Origin: Bacillota bacterium
Lineage (GTDB): Bacteria > Bacillota_I > Bacilli_A > ML615J-28 > CAG-698
NCBI GenBank assembly: GCA_016280895.1
Contig: JAEEHM010000087.1
Span: 1 to 45,241, forward strand
Length of the DNA: 45,241 nucleotides
Reading direction: 5' to 3'
Under the pieces are notes generated by a model. It did no database searches. It saw only the letters and a list, made by a program, of their open reading frames with translations, and was not told the origin of the DNA. Shown piece after piece: positions 13,180 to 42,171 of this stretch. The position numbers were made by a program, and so were the translations under genes. Positions within the stretch are counted from its first letter, which is position 1. The number at the start of each line of letters is the position of its first letter.

Positions 13180-13392
13180 ATGAAAACAATTGGTGAAGTA
13201 ATAAAAGAAAACAGAAAAAGAATGAAGTTAACCCAAAAACAAGTGGCAGTATATGCTGATGTAAGTCCTAAATTTATCATTGAGTTAGAAAATAATAAAC
13301 CGACAATTCAACTTGATAAATTATATGATGTTTTAAATGTTTTTGATTTAACATTACTAGTAGTAAGTAAAAAGGAGATTGAGAATAAATGA
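13180..13392 (+). CDS. HipB-like XRE-family antitoxin/repressor
   Basis: This 70-aa protein is a single helix-turn-helix domain: VIKENRKRMKLTQKQVAVYA at the start, then SPKFIIELENNKPTIQLDKL. It ends with a short strand-like VVSKKEIEN tail. It matches HipB-type repressors that lie before split HipA kinases. The ATG follows GAGAGGT, which itself lies inside an operator. Three copies of the AATATTACC palindrome upstream are its probable binding sites. It overlaps the next gene by four bases (ATGA). Confidence 0.88.
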   Translation: MKTIGEVIKENRKRMKLTQKQVAVYADVSPKFIIELENNKPTIQLDKLYDVLNVFDLTLLVVSKKEIENK

Positions 13393-13715
13393 AAATAGGA
13401 TATGTTTATTATGATGAAATATTTGCTGGTAAGATAATACAAGATGATAACAATGAGTTCATTTTTGAATATGATGATAAATATTTTGATGATAAAAACT
13501 GCAAAGCTATCAGCTTGACACTTCCAAAAGACAAAAAAAGATATACAAGTAATATTTTATTTCCGTTTTTTGATGGTTTGATTCCAGAAGGATATTTACT
13601 TGAAGTAGCTTTAAAGAAATTCAATATTTCCATAAATGATAGAATGTCGCTTCTTCTTAAAACATGTAAAAATCCAATTGGTATCGTGAGTGTAAGGGAG
13701 GAATATTATGAATAA
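13389..13715 (+). CDS. HipS-like protein (HipA N-terminal subdomain on its own)
   Basis: This 108-aa protein matches the N-terminal 'Couple_hipA' subdomain (PF13657): YYDEIFAGKI, ISLTLPKDKKRYTS, FPFFDGLIPEGYLLEVALKK and NPIGIVSV. In classical HipA this is fused to the kinase; here it is a separate gene. That is the layout of the three-component HipBST systems known from enteropathogenic Escherichia coli, in which HipS acts as the antitoxin. GGAG precedes the ATG, and it overlaps HipT by eight bases. The antitoxin role here is by analogy. Confidence 0.85.
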   Translation: MKIGYVYYDEIFAGKIIQDDNNEFIFEYDDKYFDDKNCKAISLTLPKDKKRYTSNILFPFFDGLIPEGYLLEVALKKFNISINDRMSLLLKTCKNPIGIVSVREEYYE

Positions 13716-14622
13716 TAAGATTTGTATGTGTTGTGGCAAAATATTAAATGATGCACAAATGTATTGGCATCCATCATGTATCAAGAAAATGTTTGATTCA
13801 TATACAATTCCTAAAATAGATATTGATGAAGAAAAAATAATTGATGAAAATTTAAATGCTGGAAAAATTCTTACTGGTGTACAAAAGAAGTTTTCTTTAG
13901 ATATTAATGTGAGAAAAGCACGTAAAACAGTATCAGTAATGAATCAAGAATATATCATAAAAACACAGCAAGCTAATTTAAATAATATTGTATATTATGA
14001 ATGGATAGGCATGAAGCTTGCAAATATTTGTGGAATTGATACTGTTGATTGTGGAATTATAAAAAATAATAATGATTTATTATTTATTATCAAAAGAATT
14101 GATCGACAAAATAATAAAAAAATACCAATGGAAGATTTTTGTCAGTTATCAAATAGCCAAACTGAATATAAATATAATGGTTCTTATGAAAGATGCTATA
14201 AGAATGTTATAAATAAATATTCTTTTTATGAAAACATTGATAAAATAAAGTTTTATAAAATCATCTTATTCTCATATATCATTGGCAATACAGATATGCA
14301 CCTAAAGAATTTTTCATTATATGAAATTGATGGAAAATATCAACTTACACCTGCATATGATTTAGTTCCAGTTTTAATGATCTTCAATCAAGAAGAAATG
14401 GCTCTTTCTATCAATGGCAAAAGAAAAAATATCACAAAGAATGATTTCTACCAATTTGGGCTTAGTATGGATATAGATAAAAGATTTATCGATTTAATTC
14501 ATAATGATTTCAAAAATAATAGAATCAAAATGAATGATTTTATTAATAATACCGATTTAAGTAATGAGGAAAAAGTAAAATTTATTAATTTTATCAATGA
14601 TAACATTAATAAATTATGTTAA
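13708..14622 (+). CDS. HipT-like serine/threonine kinase toxin
   Basis: This 304-aa HipA-family kinase lacks the N-terminal subdomain, which the previous gene provides. It opens with a Cys/His cluster (CMCCGK, then WHPSC) found in stand-alone HipT-like proteins. A Gly/Lys loop follows (TGVQKKFSLDI), then FIIKRIDR. The catalytic N-x-D-x-H-x-K-N motif reads GNTDMHLKNFS near residue 195, and the metal-binding PAYDLVPV lies near 217. All catalytic positions look intact. HipA-type kinases phosphorylate an aminoacyl-tRNA synthetase (GltX for HipA, TrpS for E. coli HipT) and stall translation; the target here is unknown. GGGAGG precedes the ATG. Confidence 0.9.
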   Translation: MNNKICMCCGKILNDAQMYWHPSCIKKMFDSYTIPKIDIDEEKIIDENLNAGKILTGVQKKFSLDINVRKARKTVSVMNQEYIIKTQQANLNNIVYYEWIGMKLANICGIDTVDCGIIKNNNDLLFIIKRIDRQNNKKIPMEDFCQLSNSQTEYKYNGSYERCYKNVINKYSFYENIDKIKFYKIILFSYIIGNTDMHLKNFSLYEIDGKYQLTPAYDLVPVLMIFNQEEMALSINGKRKNITKNDFYQFGLSMDIDKRFIDLIHNDFKNNRIKMNDFINNTDLSNEEKVKFINFINDNINKLC

Positions 14623-24885: not shown

Positions 24886-25863
24886 TCAAATATTATAATT
24901 TTTATTTACTTCTTTTATCTTTTCAATTATTGCATTTCTTACACTTTCTGGTGATACTACTTCACATATATCTCCATATTGAAGTGCCCAGTACACAAAT
25001 GCTTCTGGTGATGATTTGATTGTAACTTCAATCATATTATTATCTTTCTTTTCAATAAATGATTCAAATCCAAACCAATCTACGATTTGATCATAATACT
25101 TTTCATCACATCTTATTTTAATATCACAAGATTTATCAGCAAACATGTACGGTCTTGATACTGATAAATCTTTATAATCAATATCTTTTCCACCATTTAT
25201 ATCCTTATATGGTGTTAATGGTTCATCTAATATGTCAACTTTGATCATTTTATCGATTCTTAAAAATGTCATTTTCTTATGATAGTTATTGTATCCCATT
25301 AAATAATACTTTTGATTATGAAGCAACATTAAATATGGACTTACTTTTTGAGAATATCTAGATACAAGTTCATTCTTCAAATTGTATTTACCATATTTAA
25401 TTAATATTTGGCTATTTCTTTCTATTGCTTCATCAATAATATCAATATTTAATAAAACTGCTTGATTTTCAGTTTTCTCCCATTCATTGATAGAATAGAT
25501 GTGTTTGACATGGCTTCTATATCCAAATCCACCAAACTTAACTAGCTTTTGAATTAAATCTTTAGAATGATGACTATTCAAATATCTTGAACATAATATA
25601 GAATCTATCAATATTCTTATTTCTGATTTTTCAAATACATTAGATATCAAATAAACACCTTTACTGGTTCTTTCAATATCATATTCAGCATCTTCTAATA
25701 ATTGAATATAGTTAGAAATAGCTTTTCTTTCTAATTCTATTCCGTATTTATTTCTTAATATTTCAGATATCTCACTTTGTGTTAATGGATATGCTTCACT
25801 ACTTTTTTCTTGTAGTATTTGAAGAATACGTAAAGCTGCAAATTTCTTAGGTTCGTATGGCAT
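24886..25863 (-). CDS. WYL-domain transcriptional regulator
   Basis: This 325-aa protein has an N-terminal winged helix (ALRILQILQEKSSEAYPLTQ, then ISEILRNKYGIELERKAISN) and a WYL domain from about 150 (VSPYLMLLHNQKYYLMGYNN, then TFLRIDKM). A C-terminal WCX-like segment follows (VTIKSSPEAFVYWALQYGD). WYL proteins are ligand-sensing regulators, often controlling defence islands (BrxR and CapW are examples). It follows the macro-domain gene by one base, behind the restriction-modification cluster. It is a reasonable candidate for the protein that reads the shared promoter motif, but nothing in the sequence proves that. Confidence 0.88.
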   Translation of the reverse strand: MPYEPKKFAALRILQILQEKSSEAYPLTQSEISEILRNKYGIELERKAISNYIQLLEDAEYDIERTSKGVYLISNVFEKSEIRILIDSILCSRYLNSHHSKDLIQKLVKFGGFGYRSHVKHIYSINEWEKTENQAVLLNIDIIDEAIERNSQILIKYGKYNLKNELVSRYSQKVSPYLMLLHNQKYYLMGYNNYHKKMTFLRIDKMIKVDILDEPLTPYKDINGGKDIDYKDLSVSRPYMFADKSCDIKIRCDEKYYDQIVDWFGFESFIEKKDNNMIEVTIKSSPEAFVYWALQYGDICEVVSPESVRNAIIEKIKEVNKNYNI

Positions 25864-25864
25864 A

Positions 25865-27346
25865 TTATTTTTTTATCCTTTCGTATTCATTTAAATAAGC
25901 TTGATATGTAGTTTCGTTAAAGCATACGATTCTTACTAATCTTATACTTTGATAATCAAAAGACATAATAGCATCTAAAGCTATTCTTGCAGCTTCTTCT
26001 AATGGATATCCGTATATACCAGTAGAAATTGAAGGAAATGCAATAGATTCTAGTTTCTTTTCTTCTGCCGCTTTCAAACTATTTATATATGCATTTTTTA
26101 AATATGGTGCAGATGATTCACCTCTATAAATAGGACCAGCAGCATGTATAATGTATTTAGCAAATAGATTATAGCCTGATGTACAAACTGCTTCGCCTGT
26201 CTTTATTGGTGATAACTTATTACATTCTTCTTGCAACTCTCTATAACCAGCTTTTTCAAATATGGCACCACAAACGCCTCCGCCTGCCATAAGATCTTTA
26301 TTAGCAGCATTTACGATAGCATCAGTTTTTTCATTTGTTATATCGCCTAAAACAATTTCTATTTTTACTTTTTCATTCGGAACATACCCACCAGGAGGAG
26401 CATATTCTATATATTGCTCATTAGTAAGCATGATGTGTCCCGAAGAAAAAATATCGTATCCATAATCTACAAATGCGTAAGGGTAAATGCCTTCATCTAC
26501 ATACTTAAGCACCATTTTAAACCATTTTACATATTCACGATCATGTCCTTTAGATTGTTTAGCCAGCTCAGGATACTCGACTAATAACCTCTCTCCTATT
26601 TCTCTCTCTGTTCTGTCTTCAAAAGATTCTTCATTATTGAAAAATCTACAATTCTGGCCGCTACTATATCTATAAACAGGATTATTATAATCCATTAAAA
26701 CAAATCCAGTCTTATTATCAAAGCATTCTTTTGCAGCTAGTTCACAACGAAAATAAAACCCAGAAGGACTATAATAAGACATAATTCTTAGTTTTTCATA
26801 TCCTTGTTCATGTAAATATCCAACAACTTTAAATAATTTCGCAATAGGATCATCAAATTGATTGTTATCATTTTCCTTTTGATCATCTTCATCAATCAAA
26901 CACTTGTTTAGCATGTCTGGATATGCTTCTTCATTTGGAATTAAATCTAGGAAAGCACTTGCGATAGCATCATAACCGACCATGCGAAAACTGCCTAGCT
27001 TATGAAAATCAATATGACTATTATCATTAAAAGTTATTCTAATATTAAAACTACCGCAATCGGTCATTTGTTTTCCTTCGGCAGGATTATTATATTCTTC
27101 GTTTAAAACATTAATCAAGCTTATAAATTTTTCTTTCAAAGCATTTGAAGAAGATTTATAACTCCACGAGCATACATTTTTTTTAGTGTGATAATTGGTT
27201 CTTTCATATGATATCCAGCCTTTAGATACTCTCAACAAATCTATATATGCATTATCATCATGGACCATGAAAATATATTTAGTCACTAGTGATACTTCTT
27301 TTACATTGTCGTATGAAATATTAGTTTTTGATTGTTTATAGTCCAT
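25865..27346 (-). CDS. Macro-domain protein with large unknown N-terminal domain
   Basis: Residues from about 325 to 493 form a complete macro domain, which binds or removes ADP-ribose: GDITNEKTDAIVNAANKDL, then GGGVCGAIF, IIHAAGP and SISTGIYGYP. Residues 1-320 are a mixed alpha/beta region with no motif I recognise; FHKLGSFRMVGYD and LRIMSYYSPSGFYFRCELAA stand out. AGAGGAAGAT precedes the ATG. It sits 94 bases behind the last restriction-cluster gene, with no strong terminator between, and one base before the WYL gene. It could process ADP-ribose marks, possibly including those made by the DUF3990 protein 4.3 kb away; that link is speculative. Confidence 0.85.
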   Translation of the reverse strand: MDYKQSKTNISYDNVKEVSLVTKYIFMVHDDNAYIDLLRVSKGWISYERTNYHTKKNVCSWSYKSSSNALKEKFISLINVLNEEYNNPAEGKQMTDCGSFNIRITFNDNSHIDFHKLGSFRMVGYDAIASAFLDLIPNEEAYPDMLNKCLIDEDDQKENDNNQFDDPIAKLFKVVGYLHEQGYEKLRIMSYYSPSGFYFRCELAAKECFDNKTGFVLMDYNNPVYRYSSGQNCRFFNNEESFEDRTEREIGERLLVEYPELAKQSKGHDREYVKWFKMVLKYVDEGIYPYAFVDYGYDIFSSGHIMLTNEQYIEYAPPGGYVPNEKVKIEIVLGDITNEKTDAIVNAANKDLMAGGGVCGAIFEKAGYRELQEECNKLSPIKTGEAVCTSGYNLFAKYIIHAAGPIYRGESSAPYLKNAYINSLKAAEEKKLESIAFPSISTGIYGYPLEEAARIALDAIMSFDYQSIRLVRIVCFNETTYQAYLNEYERIKK

Positions 27347-27440
27347 AAGATCTTCCTCTTTTATTATTTATTTTTTTTACAACGAATTTCATTTTCGCCA
27401 AAATATAAATGAAAAATCAATAATTAGGCTTAAAAAAGAT

Positions 27441-27872
27441 TTACAAAATCAACTCATTTGGGTCTTTAAATCTAATTTGTTTATTTAGAAAATCAACTAC
27501 AATTAACATTTGAGTGAAATCAAATTCTTTCATTCTATCGAATGAATAATTAGTAGTCAATCTAAACATTGTTCCATCTTTCATAATCTTTATTTGAATT
27601 TGTCCTTCCGCATTTAAGTTGCATACCACATTAACAACTTCATCGCCACATTGCATATCAAAATTTTTATTTGATATATTTGAAATATGCTTTACATCAA
27701 ATAAACTACAAAAAATGTTTTCGAGTTCTTTATTTCCAACCATCCCAAAATACAAGCTATTATCAGAACCATGCGGTTTAATGTTTGATTTTGTAGGAAA
27801 TCTAGCAATTGTTCTTCTCTCTAAATCATAATAAAAACACGTATTGCCAGATAAAATATAACAATTAAGCAT
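27441..27872 (-). CDS. Unknown 143-aa protein ending the restriction cluster
   Basis: This is a soluble beta-rich protein (MLNCYILSGNTCFYYDLERR; FDFTQMLIVVDFLNKQIRF). The frame opens at a TTG, but GGAGG lies six bases before the ATG at 27872. That site is inside the end of the nuclease gene, so the two overlap by eight bases. No family is recognised. Tight coupling to the PD-(D/E)XK gene suggests a partner or inhibitor of the nuclease; that is an inference. Confidence 0.72.
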   Translation of the reverse strand: MLNCYILSGNTCFYYDLERRTIARFPTKSNIKPHGSDNSLYFGMVGNKELENIFCSLFDVKHISNISNKNFDMQCGDEVVNVVCNLNAEGQIQIKIMKDGTMFRLTTNYSFDRMKEFDFTQMLIVVDFLNKQIRFKDPNELIL

Positions 27873-28761
27873 CATTTTCCTCCTCAAAAGTCTTATAATT
27901 TAGACCATCAAGCAATATTGTATATTCATATTTAATGACATTGTTAGGTATTTTTCCGTCAACAAATGAATTCTTTGTTATAGACGGAAAATTTTCATCA
28001 ACCTTATATAACCTTATTTCATGAATTATAAATTGCTTATATCTCTCGGTCTTGCCCTCATAGTATCCATTATCTCTCAAATAATTTTCCAAAACATTTT
28101 TATCATAGCCAGCATCTATTAACTGTTTTGCTAATGAATCTAATGACTCACCTGCATTATTATCTTCTACCTTTACATATGCTATATAGAGGTCCTTGTT
28201 AAGGCCTTCAACATCCAGTTGAAACTGATTATGGATAGTAATCGCTTCATAAGTCTTCACTTTAGATGTTTTAACTTCATAAATTTTATCATCAGTCGAG
28301 ATATCAAATGTTCCTTTCTCAATAGAATTCCAAACAGGCTTTTTTCCAAAACTTTGTAATTTTAATAGAACCGCCATCTCACCTATAAAATCATAAATTG
28401 TTTTTTTCTTTGAAGAATCTCCAAGTAGGTCCTTCCACTCATTAAACCATTTCAAAGGGTCCTCAAGAATTGTTTGTCTTGCTTCTTTACTCAAGAAATT
28501 TAAACATAGAGAACCATAATTATAATTCATTTTTTCTTCTTTTGTATATAAGAATACTACCTTAGTGTCAATATCATCAATTTTAAAAGTGAGATTTTCA
28601 ATAGAAACTTTATTAAATCTTTCTTTTATAATATGTTCATCGGCAACAGGAATAGCAACTCCTATCATACCACCTGTTTTAACAGCGTAAGCATTGTATT
28701 CATTAAGCTTAATTGACTTAACAAGTGTATTAAGCGTATCAATTAATTCTTTTTCCGTCAT
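27865..28761 (-). CDS. PD-(D/E)XK motif nuclease (DUF4420-like)
   Basis: This 298-aa protein has the ordered catalytic set of a PD-(D/E)XK nuclease: Glu128 in IGEMAVLLKL, Asp153 in GTFDIS, and Glu162-x-Lys164 in YEVKTSK, followed by a helix with H-x-Q-[FL]. This matches the 'PD-(D/E)XK motif protein' family (PF14390/DUF4420) that accompanies Z1 and GHKL ATPases in restriction-like loci. AAGGAG precedes the ATG. It is the probable DNA-cutting subunit of the island, presumably cutting DNA not marked by the two methyltransferases. Family match and catalytic residues are seen; target recognition is inferred. Confidence 0.85.
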   Translation of the reverse strand: MTEKELIDTLNTLVKSIKLNEYNAYAVKTGGMIGVAIPVADEHIIKERFNKVSIENLTFKIDDIDTKVVFLYTKEEKMNYNYGSLCLNFLSKEARQTILEDPLKWFNEWKDLLGDSSKKKTIYDFIGEMAVLLKLQSFGKKPVWNSIEKGTFDISTDDKIYEVKTSKVKTYEAITIHNQFQLDVEGLNKDLYIAYVKVEDNNAGESLDSLAKQLIDAGYDKNVLENYLRDNGYYEGKTERYKQFIIHEIRLYKVDENFPSITKNSFVDGKIPNNVIKYEYTILLDGLNYKTFEEENDA

Positions 28762-28772
28762 AATAATTCTCC

Positions 28773-29447
28773 TTATATTTGATACAACATATCAACGTAT
28801 GCATTTATACCACCTTCATATAATTCAGGCCTAATAGAGACAAGTTTTGCAGTATTCTTCATCATGACTGCTCTAAATACCTTTTGTCGACTTTTTGGAT
28901 TAATTAGTGATAATTTATACATTATCCTTCTATACAAAGCTAAATTTACACCAATAGAACTAGGTCTATCTACTAATTGCAATATTTGATCTTCCAAATT
29001 ATCTTTTAAAACATTTTTTGTGTCTTCTTTATTTCCTTGCCAAGAAAGATTGATATACCAGTATATTTGGAACGGATATATAGCGGTAGGTTTACTATAA
29101 AAATGGTCACTCTTTTCAACATTCCATCTTTTAGCTATTAAATCAGGAATTACACAAACTGCGAAATACCTCCAAAAATCATAGTTAGATTCATATTTTG
29201 CAGTAAAATCTTCTTGGCTTTTTAAATACTCAAAAATAAAGAAACCGAAATTTAAATCAATGTAATATTTTTTTGAGTCACCATTTAATGCTTGTGATTC
29301 GCTTTCCAATTTTGCGTATTCTTCTATGCATATATTTCTAAGTTCACGAAAATTCGGATCTAATGTTGATTCGTCAACTGTAGAATCTACTAAGAAGCGA
29401 TTGTAAATCTCTTTTATCTTTTCAAGTCTTAATGTCTTATATGCCAT
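28773..29447 (-). CDS. DUF6339-like component of the restriction island
   Basis: This 224-aa all-helical protein has FWRYFAVCVIPDLIAKRW, HFYSKPTAIYPFQIYWYINL and LVDRPSSIGVNLALYRRIMY, the pattern I associate with DUF6339, a family found next to Z1 ATPases and PD-(D/E)XK proteins. There is no catalytic motif I can name. AAAGGTG precedes the ATG, two bases after the previous stop. The constant two-base spacing to its upstream neighbours argues for a shared complex. Confidence 0.78.
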   Translation of the reverse strand: MAYKTLRLEKIKEIYNRFLVDSTVDESTLDPNFRELRNICIEEYAKLESESQALNGDSKKYYIDLNFGFFIFEYLKSQEDFTAKYESNYDFWRYFAVCVIPDLIAKRWNVEKSDHFYSKPTAIYPFQIYWYINLSWQGNKEDTKNVLKDNLEDQILQLVDRPSSIGVNLALYRRIMYKLSLINPKSRQKVFRAVMMKNTAKLVSIRPELYEGGINAYVDMLYQI

Positions 29448-29449
29448 AA

Positions 29450-30376
29450 CTACTCACCTTTTTCCGAAAATTTATGAACACTGTCACAAATTGTAGTGAT
29501 ACTGTCAAAATTTATATTCAATCTATCCTTACAATACTTGGCATAAGCAAGTATTGTTCCTTCCTCATATGATCCGTCCAAATCAAATTCTAAAGATTGT
29601 TTTAGTTCATATAAAAATAAAATAATGGCATTTGTAACAATTTCATCAGCCAACCTATCACAATAAGTTTTCGAATTTGGGTCAACAAATTGGTAGTCTT
29701 TGTGTGCAGAATTAAATACTAAGACCATTCCTTCAGAAACTTGTTTTATATCAGGTTCATCAAGCTGTAGAACCAGCTTCCATAGTCTTTCATATGTTGG
29801 CATAGGTTCAATTCTAATAGGGAATAGAGAGCCATCGCCTGTCATAAATACAGTTTTTTTCATAATATTACCAATTAAAACTCCAGTTTCGTTATTAAGT
29901 TTCTTTTCATTGTCTTCTACATTTTTTGCTGATTTAGATAAATATAATAAACTATTTACAAATACAACTCCCGTAAATGTTTGTTTAGGCAGTGTAAAAT
30001 CAAAGAAAAAACTTTTTTCATCATCATTTGATAATATTTTTTCTTTTGCTTTGATTACTTGTCTTATTTTACCTTGTGCAGAATACCACTCAATGCATAA
30101 ACCTATTTCAGAATTTAATGGAGCAATACCGTCCTTCCCAAAAAGGTTAGAGAGGTTTTTCAATTCAATACATATGCCAACTTTTAAATCATAATCATCA
30201 CAATTCCAATTACTCTTTTTATCGAAGCTTATTCTATCGTTATCATCGGTATAATTAACTTCAGTTAGTTCTCCCCCAGCTTGATAAGAAAAATCAATCG
30301 ATATTCCTTTAACTATTTTTTCATATAATTTTTCAGTAAGTTGAGGATAAAAACAAATATTTTGTAATTTAGACAT
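29450..30376 (-). CDS. Unknown 308-aa component of the restriction island
   Basis: This soluble protein is rich in beta strands in its first 170 residues and helical in the last 90 (LADEIVTNAIILFLYELKQ). It has no motif I recognise. It lies two bases after the GHKL ATPase gene and two bases before the DUF6339-like gene, with GAGGAGG before its ATG, so it is a core member of the operon. It may be an adaptor or DNA-binding subunit; the function is open. Confidence 0.75.
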   Translation of the reverse strand: MSKLQNICFYPQLTEKLYEKIVKGISIDFSYQAGGELTEVNYTDDNDRISFDKKSNWNCDDYDLKVGICIELKNLSNLFGKDGIAPLNSEIGLCIEWYSAQGKIRQVIKAKEKILSNDDEKSFFFDFTLPKQTFTGVVFVNSLLYLSKSAKNVEDNEKKLNNETGVLIGNIMKKTVFMTGDGSLFPIRIEPMPTYERLWKLVLQLDEPDIKQVSEGMVLVFNSAHKDYQFVDPNSKTYCDRLADEIVTNAIILFLYELKQSLEFDLDGSYEEGTILAYAKYCKDRLNINFDSITTICDSVHKFSEKGE

Positions 30377-30378
30377 AA

Positions 30379-32403
30379 TTAACTATCCTCCTCAAAAGAG
30401 AAAACAAATGTTGATTGAATAAGCTTATCAATACTATCAAAAGATAAACGTAAAACAAAATCAATTGGCTTAAAGTCCGACTTAACATCCATTTTATAAC
30501 CATAGACAGTACCTTTGTTGGTTTTCAATTCAGTAATTTCAAAATACTCAAACATATTGTTTGTATTTGAATACATAACTATTGCTTTATTGACTTTCTT
30601 TTTTTCCAACATATTGCATCGAAAAGCAATTGCTTTTAAATTAATTGGATATGTCATGCCAAGATCCTCCCATTTTTGGGCTTGGCAATCTTTTCCAACT
30701 GTAGTAATTATATTTTTTATAACTATAGAATTGATTTTATCGTTTATTATAATATTATAATCTAGCATAATTCCATCATCTGTGAACTTGCTTTCATCCA
30801 TTTTTATATAATTGCTTTTGTGCGAAAGGATTGTTTTTTTACCTCCACCACCACCATTTTTTTTGCTCTTGCCAAAACCATAACCCTCATCAGGCATAAA
30901 TTTTTTTCCGAATTTTTGAGCTAAAACTGTATTAAGCTCTGCTTGTCCTGAAACTGGATTATTTTCACCAAAACTCTTTTCAAGTTCGGCTTTTATTTGA
31001 TTTATAATAGTGCCAACAATTGCGACTTGCCTTTTGTTTTGCACTATAACATGATCAGACCAATGCATATGATCCGATTTTTCGCTCTGTCTAACATATT
31101 CATCCAAATTTATTATAGCCGGACTTGTTATACTATTTAACGAGTTAAGAACAAAGACACCGAGAACTATTTCGTTTGGGTTAGTCTTAATTGAGTATTC
31201 ATTACTATAATTTATAATCATTCCTGGTTTTCTACAATAGCATATAATTGGTGTATTATATTCCTTATTATCTTGCTTGACTTGACAATAAGAATAAGGA
31301 CTAGGTAAGTTATTTGGCATTATTTCATCCTTATTTATTTTTGTATACATAAACCAACCAATCTCTTTTTCGCTAATATTATTACTTCTAGTTATAGCCT
31401 TTTTTGTAATCCATTCAGGAATTTTATCTAAAAAAGCAGCAGCATACATGTCAGTCAATTTTCTAAATATTGGAACATTAGAGTCTAATGAAACAGCTTC
31501 ACCATTAATTGTTGCAAGCAATCTACAACCATATGTATAGTCTTTTGATATTCTTGGAAAATACCATCTAAATATTGAAACTTTCAAATATTGTTCAACA
31601 CTATCATACCACCATAATTTTTCTAAGCCCTCAGGTATATTATCTTGCAAAACTTTTTCTTCATCTATATATGGAATAATAATTGTAGTACCTGTTTTTT
31701 CTCCAGTTAGTGGTTTTAAGTCAAAGATTTCTAAAAACTTCTTTATATAATTACTATCCGTCATTGCTCGCAAATTATTAATTTGATCTTCTTCTTCAAC
31801 TCCGAAAAAAGCAGCTCCCAATGAATCAGGATACTTGTTTTTTAATAACCCATCACTCTTATTCTCATCTTCTACTAAGGCTGCAACCAATCTATTTTCA
31901 AATTCACCATTCTCTTTTTTTATTCTAGAATAGTATATTATTAATCCTAATCCGAGCCTATAATATACAGTTTTTCCTATTCCCCATGAGCCACCTGATC
32001 CTTCGTTGTCTTGTGGCTTCATTATTTGGAAAACTAGCTTACCCAAATGTTGATTTTTTTCATTTACATTAAAAATACCATTTAGGTTCCCTGTTAATCC
32101 TATAGTATTAGTATCTGTTATTGATAAAAATTTATTAGCTTTGGTATCAAGTTTATGCAATTGAGAATTAATGCCTTCTAATTCATCTGCCAGCAGTTTT
32201 GAATCAAAAGTACTATATTTAAAGTCAACTCTAATTTTATCTTTAGTAATATCTAAAGATTTCATTCCCGCATCCAAGCTATTTTGTAATGATTCTCTAA
32301 CAATTAAATCTAATACTGGTGTACTAACATTTTGCATCATCCTTAGCAAGGAACTTCCGCTTGTAGTCATCCACCCTTTTTTTAGAAGTTTTATATTTAA
32401 CAT
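30379..32403 (-). CDS. GHKL (Hsp90/MutL/MORC-like) ATPase
   Basis: This 674-aa protein has a Bergerat-fold ATP site. The N box is RESLQNSLDA (Glu37, Asn41, Asp44), the G1 box is SITDTNTIGLTG near residue 95-105 and the G2 box is GSGGSWGIGKTVYYR near 135. A middle region and a Gly-rich linker (about 520) lead to a C-terminal beta domain. Related GHKL ATPases occur in restriction-modification operons with Z1 helicases and methyltransferases, described in work on MutL/MORC homologues. CAGGAG precedes the ATG, two bases after the Z1 stop. It probably acts as an ATP-gated clamp that couples recognition to cutting. Confidence 0.88.
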   Translation of the reverse strand: MLNIKLLKKGWMTTSGSSLLRMMQNVSTPVLDLIVRESLQNSLDAGMKSLDITKDKIRVDFKYSTFDSKLLADELEGINSQLHKLDTKANKFLSITDTNTIGLTGNLNGIFNVNEKNQHLGKLVFQIMKPQDNEGSGGSWGIGKTVYYRLGLGLIIYYSRIKKENGEFENRLVAALVEDENKSDGLLKNKYPDSLGAAFFGVEEEDQINNLRAMTDSNYIKKFLEIFDLKPLTGEKTGTTIIIPYIDEEKVLQDNIPEGLEKLWWYDSVEQYLKVSIFRWYFPRISKDYTYGCRLLATINGEAVSLDSNVPIFRKLTDMYAAAFLDKIPEWITKKAITRSNNISEKEIGWFMYTKINKDEIMPNNLPSPYSYCQVKQDNKEYNTPIICYCRKPGMIINYSNEYSIKTNPNEIVLGVFVLNSLNSITSPAIINLDEYVRQSEKSDHMHWSDHVIVQNKRQVAIVGTIINQIKAELEKSFGENNPVSGQAELNTVLAQKFGKKFMPDEGYGFGKSKKNGGGGGKKTILSHKSNYIKMDESKFTDDGIMLDYNIIINDKINSIVIKNIITTVGKDCQAQKWEDLGMTYPINLKAIAFRCNMLEKKKVNKAIVMYSNTNNMFEYFEITELKTNKGTVYGYKMDVKSDFKPIDFVLRLSFDSIDKLIQSTFVFSFEEDS

Positions 32404-32405
32404 AA

Positions 32406-35174
32406 TTATTGCTCCTGATATTCATCTTCATCAATAGATAAATCAATTCCGATGTAACTATTACTTTTTGCATTACTTTCATTTTCAGGAATTAATACCA
32501 TTAATCCAATAACGTCATTAATTGTATTCATCTTAAATCTCTTCTTTGTTTGAGGCTGTGAATCATGATCAATGACATAAATAACAAGTAATGGTGTAGT
32601 ATTTAAACCAACCTTAGTTCTAATTTCTTGAAAAGCAGTTGTTGATTTTTGATTAATCGCATTTTGATCTTGTTGTGATGAGACATTTGGATTTGTTGAA
32701 TCAATATCTATATATAAATCTTTTGGTGATCTTAATGCTCCGATTCTAATTATTCCATCACCCTTATTGCTCTTTCTAGAACGATTAACAAGATTTACTG
32801 TGTATTTACCGAAAGAAACTGTCCTTGTATTAGAGGCACCAGATATTGCCACATTCCAATTTCCTAATTTTCCTTGTGAGTTCAACTTATTAAACCACTT
32901 ATCAAATAACTTGACATCTAATGACTTTGAATCGCCATTTGGAAATTTCAATTTTTTTAAGTAATTATTTACGATATTATAATCAACATCTTTCCATAAT
33001 AGACTAGATTCAACTTGATTTGGCTGTAATTGAATGCTATCGATGAATGATACTGTTTCAACATAATTGTTTTTAAGAATAGTTTCATCATCAAAGAACA
33101 TTGTATTTTGAGTAACAAGACCGCCAAATTCCTTTGAAAGAGCAACAGCAGCTTTACTTTTATTTTTAGCAGTTACTTGAAACTTCTTTGTTGCATAATT
33201 TAATATTCCAATCCCACATTTTTCTGGACTAATATTATAATCTTGCATCTCCTTCATCTTTATTCTCAATTCATAATCCATTTCTGACAAGAATTCAAAT
33301 TTATTTTTTGTGTCTTCACTAAGCCAAACTCGCGGTAATAGCTCATAGCCTTTTCTATAGCCAAACCAGCGTCCCATTTGCATTAAAGTATCCGCCTGTC
33401 TTACTGTTCTAACAAAATACGTACTTATTAACCCTTCTATTGTCAAGCCTCTAGATAAAGTAGCACCGCCAATTACAATGAATCCAGAAGCATAACTTAA
33501 AGGTGTTTCAGGATATAATAATCTAATATGCTCATCATTGTTTTCCAAATAGTTGTGAGCACAGTTATCTATACATAAATGAACGCCTCTCGAATACTTT
33601 GGTTCATCGTTTTGATCAATTAGAATTGACTTCAAGCCATTAGTATATAATGATGCTATTTCATTTGATATTTCTTTAAAAGAAAGGTAATCATTTATAG
33701 GTTTATTCCCATATTTTGGATATGCTTCGTCAAAATCTTCTAAAGTAAATTGTTTAACTTGCTCGTTATAAATATCTTCACACTTCTTAACAAAAGAGAT
33801 GGGATCCATTTGATTGAACCAATCTTTTACTAAATCCGCGACAATTTGATGATGTTCCTGTTTTTGGCTTGTATGAATTAACATGCTAAATGGTTTATTA
33901 ACTTTTTTTACCCTCATTGTCGCCAATCCACAATAGAACCATAATATAGCATCTTTTAATGAATCGGGTAATTTATTAGATTTATGTTCATTAACTTCTT
34001 TTAATTTTGCAAGGTCACTTACGCTAACTTCATTAATCACACTCATGCCATCAAAGTTTTCTGATTCAAGTCCAAATATTTGTTGTGGCCCAAAGTATTC
34101 ATTTGATACTCCCAAGCTACCAACAAAATTAGAAGGATAAATGCTATTAGGACCTGGTTTTTCATTTAAAACATTAGCATATGGGGTTGCTGTATACGCC
34201 ACATAATTTATTGCTGCAAATTTTACATTTGCTACCTTATGATCAGCATCTTTATTGTTTAATAAATCAACAATTGCTTTATTAATTATTGTTCTTTCAA
34301 TATCCTCTGGATCTTTTGAAGATTTCTTTATTTTTGAAATAGCATTTATGCCTGCTTGATCAGCCTCATCATCAATTACTAGTATTTTCAAAAGTTTTCT
34401 ACTTTTATCATCTTTATTCATCCATGTTAGAAGATTTTGAAGTCGTGTTGAATTTTTCAAACACACCATTAAGTATCTTTCCCTTGAATCATGGTTTAAT
34501 TGTAATTTGCTCAATGCAAATTCATATGATGTTTTAGTGCTAACATTATTTATAGGAGTCCATGTAACATCAGTTGATCCGCTTAAATCTGATATTAACC
34601 TATCTTGTGTTTGAATTCTTAAATTTTCAATTGAACCGGATAGAACAATAAACAAATTAAAACCTATGTCAGCTCCCATAGCTAGCAAAGCAGCCATGTT
34701 AGCTGTTTTACCTGATTGAACATTTCCAACAATAAGACCTTTAACAGGGCCAGATGATCGTGTATCAAGACTTAGGTGATTTAAAGTTCTATGTGCAGAT
34801 TCCTCAATAGAATTAACTGTATCAATTTTAAATCCTTTTTGTAATAGTTTTTTCTTATAGGCAGTCCATGCACTACCAGGATTATTATTCAAATTATAAT
34901 CAAATCCAAGTGTTGCTGGTATCATAGTCGGTTTAACAACGACAATATCAACTTCTGCTTCTTTGTCTTGTTTTACGTGGTCAAATATTTTATACCATTC
35001 TTCTAATGTTAGACCTTCTAATTCTACTACATCGACAAAATTTTCAAACGCATTTTTCAAATCCTCTTCATTGTCTGTATTAAAGGATCTAATTTGTTCC
35101 CATGTCTTTCCTTTATCATATTTATTCAAAATATATGTTGAGCAAACTTTATATTCATTACTTAATAAATCCAT
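32406..35174 (-). CDS. Z1-domain SF2-type ATPase/helicase
   Basis: This 922-aa protein has Walker A GNVQSGKT at 150-157, Walker B DDEAD at 268-272, and a later helicase-type motif QMGRWFGYR preceded by GGATLSRGLTIEGL. The order and the G-R-W-F-G-Y-R block are diagnostic of the Z1 domain (PF10593). Such proteins are found with methyltransferase, GHKL ATPase and PD-(D/E)XK genes and are taken to be the motor of an ATP-dependent restriction complex. CTAGGAGGAG precedes the ATG, 12 bases behind the second methyltransferase. It is full length, with no disruptions. Confidence 0.92.
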   Translation of the reverse strand: MDLLSNEYKVCSTYILNKYDKGKTWEQIRSFNTDNEEDLKNAFENFVDVVELEGLTLEEWYKIFDHVKQDKEAEVDIVVVKPTMIPATLGFDYNLNNNPGSAWTAYKKKLLQKGFKIDTVNSIEESAHRTLNHLSLDTRSSGPVKGLIVGNVQSGKTANMAALLAMGADIGFNLFIVLSGSIENLRIQTQDRLISDLSGSTDVTWTPINNVSTKTSYEFALSKLQLNHDSRERYLMVCLKNSTRLQNLLTWMNKDDKSRKLLKILVIDDEADQAGINAISKIKKSSKDPEDIERTIINKAIVDLLNNKDADHKVANVKFAAINYVAYTATPYANVLNEKPGPNSIYPSNFVGSLGVSNEYFGPQQIFGLESENFDGMSVINEVSVSDLAKLKEVNEHKSNKLPDSLKDAILWFYCGLATMRVKKVNKPFSMLIHTSQKQEHHQIVADLVKDWFNQMDPISFVKKCEDIYNEQVKQFTLEDFDEAYPKYGNKPINDYLSFKEISNEIASLYTNGLKSILIDQNDEPKYSRGVHLCIDNCAHNYLENNDEHIRLLYPETPLSYASGFIVIGGATLSRGLTIEGLISTYFVRTVRQADTLMQMGRWFGYRKGYELLPRVWLSEDTKNKFEFLSEMDYELRIKMKEMQDYNISPEKCGIGILNYATKKFQVTAKNKSKAAVALSKEFGGLVTQNTMFFDDETILKNNYVETVSFIDSIQLQPNQVESSLLWKDVDYNIVNNYLKKLKFPNGDSKSLDVKLFDKWFNKLNSQGKLGNWNVAISGASNTRTVSFGKYTVNLVNRSRKSNKGDGIIRIGALRSPKDLYIDIDSTNPNVSSQQDQNAINQKSTTAFQEIRTKVGLNTTPLLVIYVIDHDSQPQTKKRFKMNTINDVIGLMVLIPENESNAKSNSYIGIDLSIDEDEYQEQ

Positions 35175-35186
35175 GTTAATCTCCTC

Positions 35187-36311
35187 CTAGTTCCAAAAAG
35201 TCATAATATATTGGACTATTTTCATCATGACATCAACAACAATAGAATTACCTGCTTGTTTATATGCCTGTGCAACTGAAACAGGCATAATAAAATCATC
35301 AGTATAACCCATCAATCGTAAGCACTCTCTTTCAGTCAGCATCCTAATTCTTCCATTATCGGTTACATAGTTGTCGACACCAGCCCTATGACAATTACCC
35401 ATTGTTTTCAATAAAGTCCTGGCAATAGGCAAGTCAATTTCAGGTTTTTGATGCCAATTCTTAGTTCCATCTTTTAATACATATTTTCTAACAGCATTTG
35501 ATAAATAATATCTTTCTCCAATTTTTCCCTGACCTACTTTTTCAATTTTTAATGAACCATCACTGTTGTGAGTAAAACATCCATATTTACAATTATTCAA
35601 TAAAAAATCTTGCATCGTATAATCAGGCCTTTCATAAGTTTCATTAATTTTGCTTGGAAGATTAGGAGAAATATCATACTTTTTATCAAATCCTAAAACA
35701 AATAAACGGCTTCTCTTTTGAGGAATATTAAAATTAACAGCATTTAATATTTTAAAATCTATTTTATATCCTAGTTCATCAAATGAATTTTTTATGACGT
35801 CCCATGTTTTTCCATTATCATGATTAAGTATATTTCTAACATTTTCAAAAATGAAGACTTTTGGTCTTATTTCCATTACTAATCTTGCAAATTCATAAAA
35901 TAGAGTACCTCTTGCATCTTCCAATCCTTTTTGATATCCTACACTTGAAAAGCTTTGACATGGGCTCCCTCCAACAAATAAATCAACTTGTCCCTTGAAG
36001 TCTCTTCCGTCAAGCAAATTGATATCTTGGAAAAAGAGACCATCTTTAATCTTGTAGTTTGCTAAATATGTGTCTTTAACGAAATTATGTTTACGAGTTT
36101 TTCCGCTATATAAATCATCAACATATTTCATTTTTTCTTTAGGATTATTAAGATTTCTAATTATTCCAAGTTCCTCTTCCTTGTTATAATCAATTTCAAC
36201 TTCACCAGTATCACAAGCAAAGACTATTTCGTGAGGAATATTTAACCTTTTTAAAGCAAATTCTATAGATCCAATTCCACTAAATACAGTAGCCAATCTT
36301 ATTTTATTCAT
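35187..36311 (-). CDS. DNA cytosine-5 methyltransferase (second of a tandem pair)
   Basis: This 374-aa Dcm-family enzyme has motif I ATVFSGIGSIEFAL, motif IV GGSPCQSFSS with catalytic Cys118, motif VI FENVRN, motif VIII PQKRSRLFVLGF, and motifs IX-X RMLTERECLRLMGY and QAGNSIVVDVM. The target-recognition region lies between VIII and IX (about 225-320) and differs fully from that of the neighbour. GAGGA six bases before the ATG at 36311 sets the start, overlapping the first methyltransferase by eight bases. It probably protects host DNA from the nuclease complex. The site cannot be read from sequence. Confidence 0.93.
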   Translation of the reverse strand: MNKIRLATVFSGIGSIEFALKRLNIPHEIVFACDTGEVEIDYNKEEELGIIRNLNNPKEKMKYVDDLYSGKTRKHNFVKDTYLANYKIKDGLFFQDINLLDGRDFKGQVDLFVGGSPCQSFSSVGYQKGLEDARGTLFYEFARLVMEIRPKVFIFENVRNILNHDNGKTWDVIKNSFDELGYKIDFKILNAVNFNIPQKRSRLFVLGFDKKYDISPNLPSKINETYERPDYTMQDFLLNNCKYGCFTHNSDGSLKIEKVGQGKIGERYYLSNAVRKYVLKDGTKNWHQKPEIDLPIARTLLKTMGNCHRAGVDNYVTDNGRIRMLTERECLRLMGYTDDFIMPVSVAQAYKQAGNSIVVDVMMKIVQYIMTFWN

Positions 36312-37407
36312 TAAAATCCTCAACTTTCATTATTTCACTCATTATGGCTTCTAAAACATTAACTATAATAGAATTACCTGCTTGTCTATATCTCCATAGG
36401 TTGCTAACTTTCGTATAGTCATAAGAGTCATCAAAGCCCATCAATCTATAACATTCTCTATAAGTCAATTGTCTTATTACGCCTTTTTTACCATTCCAAG
36501 TTCCAACATAAGCTCTTTTTAAAACATCTACTCTATCTTTAATCTTATCATACTCCTCAAAAACAAAATCTCCATTCCAATTAAATTGCTGATTTGCCTT
36601 TTGAGTTCTTATGATTTCATTATTGACAACAGCCCTTCCCCTATATTTTGGGTTTGTAACAAACTCAAAACCTTTTTGACCCAAATAGTGTCTTACTGCT
36701 GCATTTTCTTCTAAATAATCAAACAATGTTGTTTGTAATTTTGTTGCTTTAGGAAATGAAAAAGATCTATCTTTTTTAAAACCTACAACAAATAATCTAT
36801 TACGTCTTTGAGGTATACCGTAATCAATACCATTTAAAATAGCATCGTAACATTTATAATTTAAGTTTATAAATATTTCTTTTATTCTTTTCCAGGTATC
36901 TCCACCATCATGATTTAGCATTCCTGGAACATTTTCGTAAATAAACACTTTGGGCTTTATTTCATCAATCAATTTAGCATAATTATAGAATAAAGTTCCT
37001 CTTGCATCTTCAAGCCCTTTTCTTCTTCCCATGTTGGAAAAACTTTGGCAAGGACTTCCACCAACAAAAATATCCACTTTATTAGTATATTTTTTACCAT
37101 TAATAAATCTTATATCCTCATACCATCTATCTTCTGAAATATCATAATTTGCAAAATAAGAAGTTTTCATACGATTTTCTTTTCCTGTAGAATCATAGAG
37201 GGACTTTACATATTTTGACAATTCTTCGTCACTTAGATTATTTTCGCTTGCGTAATTCATTATTTCTTCATATGAAGTACTTAGTTCTCGTTCACCATTA
37301 TCACACGCAAAAACAATTTCATATGGTATATTATCTTTTTTTAACGCATGTTCGAATGCTCCAATTCCACTAAATACTGTTGCAATTCTTAATTTTTTGC
37401 TTAACAT
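36304..37407 (-). CDS. DNA cytosine-5 methyltransferase (first of a tandem pair)
   Basis: This 367-aa enzyme has all Dcm-type motifs: TVFSGIGAFEHAL, GGSPCQSFSNMGRRKG with catalytic Cys120, YENVPG, PQRRNRLFVVGF, then QLTYRECYRLMGF and QAGNSIIVNVLEA. It shares with its neighbour an unusual 60-70 residue insertion between motifs I and IV (about 38-105), so the pair arose by duplication, while the recognition regions differ. It is the first gene of the restriction island. TGGAG precedes the ATG. The operon has a shared-motif promoter at 37516-37549 and a second possible -10 closer to the gene. Confidence 0.93.
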   Translation of the reverse strand: MLSKKLRIATVFSGIGAFEHALKKDNIPYEIVFACDNGERELSTSYEEIMNYASENNLSDEELSKYVKSLYDSTGKENRMKTSYFANYDISEDRWYEDIRFINGKKYTNKVDIFVGGSPCQSFSNMGRRKGLEDARGTLFYNYAKLIDEIKPKVFIYENVPGMLNHDGGDTWKRIKEIFINLNYKCYDAILNGIDYGIPQRRNRLFVVGFKKDRSFSFPKATKLQTTLFDYLEENAAVRHYLGQKGFEFVTNPKYRGRAVVNNEIIRTQKANQQFNWNGDFVFEEYDKIKDRVDVLKRAYVGTWNGKKGVIRQLTYRECYRLMGFDDSYDYTKVSNLWRYRQAGNSIIVNVLEAIMSEIMKVEDFNE

Positions 37408-39335: not shown

Positions 39336-39770
39336 TTATTCTTTAGATTCTATTACATTTATACAGTAATCGATTCTAATTTTTTCTAATTGTTGGTATA
39401 TATTTTCAATAAGCTTATAGTCTTTTTTTAATTTATCAACTTCTTTACGATATTCTTTAGTCTTTTCAAAGTTTTCTTCATACATGAAATTTTGGAAAAC
39501 TTCATGAGCCCAATGATTTCTATGTCCGTTTAGTTTCATTAATAAATCATAACTTTCACTTGTTAAAAGTGGGCTATTATCTGAATTATCTAATTCTCTT
39601 AAAGATTCAATTGCCTTCTTTAATGGATACAATCTTATTTCTTCTTTAATGCTTCCATCTTCATCGTTATCATTAATCATATAATAGTATATTAATTTTA
39701 TATCGTGCTCTATTGCTTGATAATCCATCATTAAATCAGCATACATTATTCTAAAATCAACAAAATTCAT
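39336..39770 (-). CDS. HEPN-like helical protein in the RNase III operon
   Basis: This 144-aa all-helical protein has R84-NHWA-H89, an R-x4-H motif between two helices as in HEPN ribonucleases. The segment LMKLNGHRNHWAHEVF also resembles DUF4145/HEPN-type proteins. The frame opens at a TTG, but GGGGC lies six bases before the ATG at 39770 (MNFVDFRIMYADL). It is the third gene of a tight operon headed by the accessory RNase III. RNA cleavage or RNA-end binding is an inference from the motif and the context. Confidence 0.7.
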   Translation of the reverse strand: MNFVDFRIMYADLMMDYQAIEHDIKLIYYYMINDNDEDGSIKEEIRLYPLKKAIESLRELDNSDNSPLLTSESYDLLMKLNGHRNHWAHEVFQNFMYEENFEKTKEYRKEVDKLKKDYKLIENIYQQLEKIRIDYCINVIESKE

Positions 39771-40229: not shown

Positions 40230-41324
40230 CTAAAAACTTATCGTTCCATCATATTTGTCTTTATATCCCATTAAATCACATATACACAAATAAGCAGCAT
40301 ATTTCTTTGCTAATTTCTTATTTGTTGCATGAACTACTCTTTCAATGTTTTCACTTTCAATTATACAAGTACATTCCCAACGTGAATTACCTTCTTCATC
40401 ATATACTTCTTTATCTGGAATTATATATTCAGGCATTGAAATCCATTCTTTTTGAGCTAATTCTTGAAGTGCATTTATTGAATTATCTATTGTTAAATCT
40501 TCTTCTTTCGGACAATCATCCTCAATTGATGCTAAAAAGCCTTCTCTCTCCAAATATAAATATGCATGTTTAGCACATTCATATCTTGCTTCTGATTTTG
40601 TTCTTCCAAGTCCTTGAAAATCTCTATAGGTATTATTATCACCTACTAAGCGCATCTCAACACTAAACCTGTTAAATCTTCCTTCATAAAGAAAACCTCC
40701 TGGTAATTCCTTGTAATAGTATTCTGGTGTCCTCTTAAATTCCTTTTGATACCATTGTTGTAGAAGTTGAACATAGTCAGTATCTTTAATAAATCCATTG
40801 TTAAAATAGAAATCAATATTTAACATAGCACATACAGAATTATATAAGCTTTCTTGATTCCAATTTGAATCAATTGCGATAGCACCAAGAATTGCTTCAA
40901 ACAAATCTGCTTTGGTTTTCATTTCATCTTTAACTTTTTGTTTTGTAGCACCTTTTCCTAAATACAGGAATTCTTCTAAGTGTCCCATTAGTTCAATTCG
41001 ATGTGCAAGCATCTTATTATCAACTAATGATTTCTTTATTTCAGTTAAATCCGATTCGTCAATGTTTTTCTCTGTCAAAAACTCATCAAATTCTTGAGAT
41101 GTAAGATTTCTTTCTGAACTTTTTAAGAATCCATAGCGATTTATAAGAATCTTAGTTACATAAAAATCTAATACCTCATCCCCTATAAATTCTAATACCT
41201 GATTTGACGCCCATCCATTTTCTTTAGCAAATGTTTTTTGGGTGAATGCTTGATCCAACAAATCCTTATTTCTAAAACGATAATTGATTTGTTCCTGAAT
41301 AAATTTTAAAGCTTCTTTTTCCAT
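40230..41324 (-). CDS. Accessory ribonuclease III with two double-stranded-RNA-binding domains
   Basis: This 364-aa protein is longer than housekeeping RNase III (about 230 aa). The catalytic domain has NQVLEFIGDEVLD (44-53 region) and ADLFEAILGAIAID (about 139-152). The positions equal to E. coli Glu41, Asp45, Asp114 and Glu117 are intact, while the Glu38 position is Gln. An insertion separates the motifs. Two dsRNA-binding domains follow, about 183-261 and 280-353. The ATG at 41351 lies inside a leader stem; AAGGAG before the ATG at 41324 sets the start. It heads an operon with a membrane protein and a HEPN-like protein. It is probably a dsRNA-processing defence or regulatory enzyme, not the housekeeping copy. 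Confidence 0.88.
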   Translation of the reverse strand: MEKEALKFIQEQINYRFRNKDLLDQAFTQKTFAKENGWASNQVLEFIGDEVLDFYVTKILINRYGFLKSSERNLTSQEFDEFLTEKNIDESDLTEIKKSLVDNKMLAHRIELMGHLEEFLYLGKGATKQKVKDEMKTKADLFEAILGAIAIDSNWNQESLYNSVCAMLNIDFYFNNGFIKDTDYVQLLQQWYQKEFKRTPEYYYKELPGGFLYEGRFNRFSVEMRLVGDNNTYRDFQGLGRTKSEARYECAKHAYLYLEREGFLASIEDDCPKEEDLTIDNSINALQELAQKEWISMPEYIIPDKEVYDEEGNSRWECTCIIESENIERVVHATNKKLAKKYAAYLCICDLMGYKDKYDGTISF

Positions 41325-41338
41325 TTTTTTCTCCTTTT

Positions 41339-41531
41339 CTAGAGAAAACAAAAAGACCTAGATCCACTACCCCTATGTTCGACAAAAAAGGAGTATTTCT
41401 AAGTCCAACTAATTAAAATATAAATTTACTTAATTCATTTTGACTTATTATTTATCACTTGCATAATAAAGAATAAGTGTACATAAATTATGTCTAAAAT
41501 ATTTAGATTAACCAGACTTTGTTTTCTCTAG
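41339..41531 (-). promoter_or_regulatory. Self-complementary 5' leader of the RNase III mRNA
   Basis: CTAGAGAAAACAAA at the predicted 5' end (41531-41518) is perfectly complementary to the 14 bases at 41352-41339, which directly adjoin the AAAAGGAG ribosome site. Inside the loop, CTCCTTTT (41393-41386) is complementary to that ribosome site. The leader could therefore form a double-stranded target or switch. There is no gene in the leader. Confidence 0.75.
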
Positions 41532-41535
41532 CATT

Positions 41536-41564
41536 ATTGTATCATACAAATAAAAATATGTCTA
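41536..41564 (-). promoter_or_regulatory. Promoter of the RNase III operon
   Basis: TAGACA (41564-41559), 17 bases, then TACAAT (41541-41536). The expected start falls within one or two bases of the first base of the leader stem. Confidence 0.7.
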
Positions 41565-41589
41565 CATTAAAAATTTATTTTTTAAAAAA

Positions 41590-41663
41590 GCTGCCCTGGT
41601 AAGCCTATCTCATTTTACATTGAGTATACTCCATCTAAATTTAAATAAGCTTACCATATAAGC
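41590..41663. repeat. 74-nt hairpin repeat, copy 2
   Basis: It has the same length and orientation as copy 1 at 38347. The shared core is the 27-nt segment between AAGCCTATC and TACTCCAT, while arms vary. In the arm, TGGTAAGC pairs with GCTTACCA where copy 1 has TGGGAAGC facing GCTTGCCA, so pairing changed along with sequence. Confidence 0.8.
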
Positions 41664-41673
41664 AATTTCCAAA

Positions 41674-41705
41674 ATAAAAAAAGCTGCATTAAAACTAATG
41701 CATCT
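41674..41705 (-). terminator. Terminator-like hairpin
   Basis: TGCATTA / TAATGCA with a 4-nt loop is followed on the minus strand by GC and TTTTTTT. No gene directly precedes it except a possible 21-codon frame without a ribosome site. Confidence 0.6.
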
Positions 41706-41782
41706 ATTTCTTCATCTTAAAATTTCTAAGATATTCCACCAACAACAAAATTATATCATTATTATTCATAAAAATAAATATA

Positions 41783-41820
41783 AATCCCAAAAAAGACCCT
41801 TACGGGTCTTCTTTGGGATT
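41783..41820 (-). terminator. Strong two-part terminator hairpin
   Basis: AGACCC / GGGTCT (loop GTAA on the minus strand) is enclosed by AATCCCAAA / TTTGGGATT. On the minus strand the inner stem is followed by TTTTTT. It would end any transcript coming from 41.8-42.3 kb. Confidence 0.8.
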
Positions 41821-42099
41821 AATCTTTCTCCTGTATCTATTTCAAAAAAACAAAAAGTAACTTGCATCATACAATGCTGAATAAAAAAGGTTCAAAGTCA
41901 CTATTGTTTAATCAAAATAATCTTAAAAATAATAATTTAACGGAATCAGGCTTGCAGGGCAATGCAAGCCTGTAATCCTTATAAAGAGGGTTGAATAATC
42001 AAAGAAAAAAATAAACAATTTGTTTTCGAGAAAAGGATTTATTTATGAAGTTATATTTTTTTCTTTACATTTATTCTTGGTCTTGAACTTCAAAACCCG
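41783..42099 (-). ncRNA. Candidate structured RNA of about 315 nt
   Basis: On the minus strand TTGACA (42134-42129), 17 bases, then TAAACT (42111-42106) form a plausible promoter. The transcript would end at the hairpin at 41783. Inside it a perfect 10-bp stem, CAGGCTTGCA / TGCAAGCCTG (41947-41973, loop of 6), stands out in otherwise AT-rich DNA. No protein frame with a ribosome site fills the region. It does not match RNase P, tmRNA or SRP RNA signatures that I know. Confidence 0.4.
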
Positions 42100-42171
42100 A
42101 GTATTAGTTTACTCTTTTTAATCTTATTTGTCAATAAAAATTTACATGAAAACATTTACACATGTATACTT

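Follow-up and report, generated by a model that had tools for sequence, protein, structure and literature searches.

A conserved structured leader RNA before an accessory RNase III gene as a candidate switch at the ribosome site

Results

An accessory RNase III gene beside a defence island

The window (the whole 45,241-nucleotide stretch of DNA that was analysed) carries on its reverse strand an accessory RNase III gene, preceded by the leader whose parts are listed in Table 1. The product is an RNase III enzyme by its Pfam RNase III domain and by four acidic residues (Glu45, Asp49, Asp140, and Glu143) that are invariant in nine aligned homologues (alignment A1), and which we assign to the four catalytic acidic positions of such enzymes. 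Pfam also found two dsRNA-binding stretches, as had been claimed in an earlier reading of the sequence alone (hereafter, the sequence-only reading), and the region of the first is missing in four of the nine aligned homologues. The NCBIfam RNase III score (132.6 bits) lies below the cut-off of 166.25. Two further RNase III-domain genes, with open frames of 233 and 134 aa, are present on other contigs of the genome, and we therefore consider the window gene to be accessory, a label that the sequence-only reading had already given it. PADLOC models produced no match to it at E ≤ 0.01, and by this search it is not recognised as a known anti-phage defence protein.

A conserved operon partner was rejected, because the neighbours vary between homologous loci. 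A protein family that, read from its sequence, appears to be serine-recombinase-like lies near the RNase III gene in 12 loci, and the window gene itself sits beside an Mza-like defence island (24886-37407, reverse strand) that also holds a macro-domain protein and a WYL protein. Given these recombinases and this island, the module seems to move together with DNA of mobile elements or defence systems. Elsewhere in the neighbourhood, a small protein encoded two genes after RNase III (39336-39770, reverse strand), which has no Pfam family, contains a motif (RNHWAH) resembling the HEPN nuclease motif. The long intergenic stretch at 41535-42165 has several hairpins, two of them ending in an identical GCAGCTTTTTT, as well as a terminator-like site at 41820-41783, and it may hold further small RNAs. 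A HipA-type kinase gene (13389-14622, forward strand), with a 108-aa frame immediately before it, looks like part of a toxin-antitoxin pair with that frame.

Table 1. Positions of the leader, its parts, and the neighbouring genes within the window
Feature	Positions	Strand	Basis or comment
Predicted promoter: TAGACA (41564-41559), 17-nt spacer, TACAAT (41541-41536), TG before -10	41536-41564	-	Consensus scan
Structured leader RNA	41339-41531	-	Covariance model match 41513-41344; fold z -5.7
P1 5' strand, CTAGAGAAAACAAAG	41517-41531	-	Partner 41353-41339
Long arm P2/P3	41409-41515	-	Predicted helices; homologous helices covary
Hairpin UAUGCAAGUG, GCAA loop (GNRA-type), tip of P2/P3	41465-41456	-	Loop motif in most homologues
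Arm P4	41354-41406	-	Predicted helix; outer P4 pairs covary in alignment A2
P4 outer stem	41406-41398 / 41362-41354	-	Predicted helix
P1 3' strand; doubles as arm able to cover ribosome site	41339-41353	-	Dual role in 69 of 70 leaders
Alternative hairpin over ribosome site	41327-41348	-	TTTTCTC (41348-41342) with GAGAAAA (41333-41327); excludes P1
Ribosome site AAAAGGAG	41331-41338	-	Sequence
Accessory RNase III gene; product of 364 aa with an RNase III domain plus two dsRNA-binding domains	40230-41324	-	Pfam, alignment A1
Z1 protein	32406-35174	-	PADLOC MzaC, E 1.6e-56
DUF4420 protein	27865-28761	-	MzaD
Two C5 cytosine methylases	35187-37407	-	Mza-like island

Architecture of the window leader

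From P1 to P1', the leader RNA spans 193 nt. It is bounded by CTAGAGAAAACAAA (41531-41518) and its exact 14-base complement TTTGTTTTCTCTAG (41352-41339), the second of which directly adjoins the ribosome site; the sequence-only reading had placed all three elements exactly. Counting an innermost G-U pair, the resulting stem (P1) has 15 pairs. When the leader was shuffled 200 times with its dinucleotides preserved, exact inverted repeats separated by at least 60 nt grew to 12 bases at most, and 14 was never reached. The predicted promoter upstream scores 10/12 against the consensus, where comparable matches are frequent in this AT-rich DNA, and places the start at about 41531-41528. This lies within the first bases of the P1 5' strand, and not downstream of 41518, in keeping with the proposal that the transcript begins with the repeat. 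Moreover, a -10-like box precedes the P1 5' strand by no more than 25 nt in 71 of 82 homologous leaders, typically at a distance of 5-11 nt.

Folding of the window leader predicted a stable structure (-56.4 kcal/mol; z -5.7; none of the shuffles equally stable) in which P1 is formed and closes a three-way junction between (i) an arm carrying the UAUGCAAGUG hairpin and (ii) the second arm, P4, which is followed by a T-rich tract. P4 contains GGGGTAGTG, which is common to homologues, as well as CTCCTTTT (41393-41386), for which the sequence-only reading had suggested pairing with the ribosome site. While the position of CTCCTTTT and its pairing on paper are correct, the pairing is absent from the predicted folds, and no counterpart of a CTCCTTTT/AAAAGGAG pairing was noticed in the homologues. 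We therefore rejected CTCCTTTT as a regulatory arm, since it sits inside P4 in the fold and is not conserved. The better-supported alternative partner of the ribosome site is the 3' strand of the 14-base stem, which that reading had overlooked.

Two other readings of the inverted repeat were also rejected: a transposon end or MITE, because the leader has no further copy in the genome, and a retron-like arrangement of terminal inverted repeats around a folded RNA, because the downstream gene encodes RNase III. No reverse transcriptase was found among the window proteins scanned, which cover part of the window's frames.

Covariation and recovery by an independent model

To the sequence-only reading, homologous leaders should carry complementary arms with compensatory changes, and they do. 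In an alignment of 39 Clostridia-type leaders of distant homologues (A2), from which the window leader was excluded, 92.5% of the pairings at 36 base pairs are standard, and 24 of the 36 pairs show compensatory (two-sided) changes. The covariation score of A2 was 0.444, compared with 0.215 for shuffled alignments (0 of 500 as high) and at most 0.149 for slid controls. Because relatedness inflates the shuffle test, we give more weight to the slid control and to an independent search. For the latter, a covariance model (R1) was built from A2, and thus without the window sequence or any member of its subgroup. R1 nevertheless recovered the window leader (41513-41344) with 53.7 bits and an E value of 1.4e-9, compared with 0.29 for the next match in the window, and a search of the window's genome returned no match besides the window leader. 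Further, 40 of 52 homologous loci outside the model were matched at E ≤ 0.01, and in every one of them the match lies immediately ahead of the RNase III gene. With covariation above both controls and recovery by an independent model, the leader belongs among conserved structured RNAs.

No Rfam 15 family matched in the window at gathering scores, 13 homologous loci yielded nothing except a distant tRNA, and permissive scans gave sub-threshold, chance-like matches only; a known Rfam RNA was accordingly rejected. The literature searched, which included two genome-wide surveys of structured RNAs, describes no such RNA, though it may have been listed earlier without a name. As far as Rfam 15 and this literature can tell, the leader would therefore represent a new RNA class.

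Distribution of the leader

Among 100 relatives of the host, the matches were mostly to housekeeping RNase III; close homologues are scarce in the near relatives and, in a class-wide search, present across the class. Single-protein scans of genome contigs and viral contigs found nothing, whereas alignment-based scans yielded 320 related stretches, the 80 best being retained, and 12 loci on viral contigs. The records carrying homologous loci come mainly from Bacilli and Clostridia of the gut and rumen, and the leader RNA is common to many gut and rumen Firmicutes. Named strains with the module include Ruminococcus bromii 5AMG, Agathobacter ruminis JK623, and Butyrivibrio sp. AE3009. The homologous leaders share the UAUGCAAGUG hairpin, the second arm, and a closing stem that runs from near the promoter to near the ribosome site; the UAUGCAAGUG loop motif is altered in one subgroup (L041/L056). 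In 35 whole genomes, the leader RNA occurs at exactly one site each, additional listed matches being the same place on the opposite strand. In 395 genomes of the window's class, at least four sites exist, of which three precede the RNase III gene and the fourth is a truncated copy; the number is a minimum, since the stricter filters of this search drop weak matches.

The truncated copy (L162; G016:C2:2424-2562) runs from the P1 5' strand into P4; the RNase III gene is missing there, and a small cysteine-rich frame follows the copy immediately. In three loci (L057, L037, and L068), the 5' half of the leader is absent upstream of the RNase III start, with insertion-sequence-like repeats in its place, and in the latter two, the RNase III gene also carries an internal stop. 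These loci are natural tests of the switch described below, which is predicted to be off in them. In L042, a tRNA-Cys gene (1034-1108) ends precisely where the 5' half of the leader would be expected, while the RNase III frame is intact, reflecting either recombination or a join made during assembly. In a congeneric genome, the accessory RNase III gene (32% identity; L007/L034, positions 1-96) lies at a contig start; the preceding 93 bases look like P4 and the 3' strand of P1, so that this genome probably has the RNA in a form cut off by the contig start.

Mutually exclusive pairing at the ribosome site

The 3' strand of P1 has a second role in 69 of 70 leaders, where it can join a hairpin that covers the ribosome site or lies next to it. 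Across these 70 leaders, mean pairing of the ribosome site was 0.86, compared with 0.51 in shuffles, and the hairpin energy was -11.3 kcal/mol, compared with -4.7 kcal/mol; a weak case is L036, where site pairing is 0.26. The arms of the hairpin differ between subgroups (CCTTCTTATAG/CTATAAGGAGG, CCTTTTGGTA/TACCGAAAGG, and TCTCCAAG/CTTGGAGGA, with TTTTCTC/GAGAAAA in the window), and five of its seven consensus pairs show two-sided changes. Since P1 and this hairpin share bases, they are mutually exclusive. Consistent with this, folding predicted the window ribosome site to be unpaired with a probability of 1.00 in the full leader and 0.18 when the P1 5' strand was omitted. The corresponding means in 73 leaders were 0.35 and 0.14, with noise added by a wrong automatic choice of P1 in a few of them (L036, for example), and the site stayed mostly open despite removal of the P1 5' strand in a single leader. 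In many Clostridia leaders, the plain energy model prefers the hidden ribosome site even at full length, so that something else must stabilise P1 in these leaders. In two homologues (L076 and L078), a terminator-like hairpin occupies the position of the ribosome-site hairpin. By folding, the leader thus has the riboswitch-like opposition of a closing stem to a ribosome-site hairpin or terminator, and by location, it resembles rncO in lying in the 5' leader of an RNase III gene. We infer that this pairing controls expression of the gene.

Discussion

Computation establishes that the fold is conserved, that the RNA is tied one-to-one to the gene, and that the two pairings exclude each other, and the leader is very probably a cis-acting switch of the accessory RNase III gene. 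The sequence-only reading had proposed a leader able to form a double-stranded RNA at its own 5' end, and had suggested autoregulation or a switch in which double-stranded RNA competes for the enzyme. A structured regulatory leader is upheld by the homologues, the compensatory changes, and the alternative pairing, but the structure is not simply a long duplex, being instead a three-way junction with a switch at the ribosome site, a feature that the sequence-only reading had missed. In the mechanism that we propose, the first bases of the transcript would become the P1 5' strand, closing the junction. With P1 formed, its 3' strand would be occupied, leaving the ribosome site open and the gene on; with P1 lost, the same strand would cover the ribosome site and turn the gene off. 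RNase III, by binding or cutting the leader, would destabilise P1 and so lower its own synthesis, which would rise when the enzyme is occupied by other double-stranded RNA.

We infer that RNase III is the trigger, and regard it as the likeliest one, because the RNA is tied one-to-one to the gene, the active site is conserved, and RNase III is known to control itself elsewhere, as documented in E. coli and Streptomyces (PMC3997798), as well as in S. aureus, through a cut in a stem-loop inside the coding sequence (PMC3386247). Taken as a whole, a cis-acting switch dedicated to this gene with RNase III as its trigger has, in our estimate, a probability of roughly 0.5. Our doubt about cleavage stems mainly from the Clostridia arms, which are short and loop-rich (∼7+6 pairs with internal loops) and poorly suited to ordinary RNase III cutting. 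Also counting against the enzyme as trigger, a nick in an arm would keep the P1 strands paired. An extension of the proposal, in which foreign dsRNA draws the enzyme off the leader, P1 forms, and a burst of enzyme follows, would make the leader RNA the sensor and RNase III the effector of a mobile RNA-protein module, giving an inducible dsRNA response borne by mobile elements; we consider this speculative and rather doubtful.

That many homologues require P1 to be stabilised could instead point to a riboswitch-type leader, in which the gene is turned on when the junction and P1 are stabilised by a ligand other than the enzyme, be it a metabolite, an ion, or a molecule produced in the course of infection or of element transfer. 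The expression platform is of the riboswitch type, in both translational and terminator-like versions, and the hairpin loop is conserved, yet this motif varies in the L041/L056 subgroup, unlike a strict binding pocket, and no regulon is seen in 35 genomes, each of which has the RNA at a single place that invariably precedes the RNase III gene. Such a ligand is a possibility that we take seriously, while thinking it unlikely. The presence of one RNA for each RNase III gene would suit a leader that is mainly a stable RNA partner, which the enzyme processes and retains within a ribonucleoprotein to serve as guide, decoy, or inhibitor, possibly against phages. The serine recombinases in 12 loci, the adjoining Mza-like island, and the potential of P4 and the T-rich tract to terminate transcription in the Bacilli versions would all fit this reading. 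However, the common 3' feature is the ribosome-site hairpin, for which a free RNA has no need; most Clostridia versions lack a T-rich tract after P4; and no variable, guide-like segment was seen. We judge an RNA partner of this kind improbable. In such AT-rich sequence, one might suspect an inverted repeat that arose by chance or that marks the ends of a small transposable element, as element ends often carry inverted repeats, but a 14-base repeat never arises in the shuffles, a second copy is absent from the genome, and conservation with compensatory changes, together with recovery by an independent model, contradicts this explanation, which we hold to be barely credible.

The preferred reading, a switch that responds to RNase III, is as a mechanism a new variant on known leader control. 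The leader adds a widespread class of structured RNA, which covaries strongly, has a switch layout of unusual clarity, and is placed before a nuclease rather than a metabolic gene. Together, leader and enzyme offer a testable system for the restraint of a dsRNA-cutting enzyme on mobile DNA, and the leader is a candidate means by which bacteria may detect double-stranded RNA.

Among known systems, the E. coli rnc leader, rncO, is likewise a structured leader before an RNase III gene, and both leaders are considered to set the amount of enzyme. In the work of Bardwell et al. 1989 and Matsunaga et al. 1996, both cited in PMC3997798, rncO reportedly acts via cleavage that speeds mRNA decay. Unlike rncO, the window leader has a three-way junction, a pairing switch at the ribosome site, and an accessory gene, and its cleavage is putative. 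S. aureus RNase III resembles the proposed system as a Firmicute RNase III acting on its own mRNA, but its cut site lies within the coding sequence, whereas the window system has a conserved leader RNA. Riboswitches with translational or terminator expression platforms share the layout of a junction closed by P1, whose 3' strand can otherwise cover the ribosome site, with a terminator-like form in two homologues; unlike them, this leader RNA would control an RNase III gene only, has no Rfam family, and has no known ligand. Finally, the leaders of autogenously controlled ribosomal proteins are likewise folded RNAs tied to one gene with an RNA-binding product, whereas here the product is a nuclease, often near mobile DNA, whose binding to the leader is putative.
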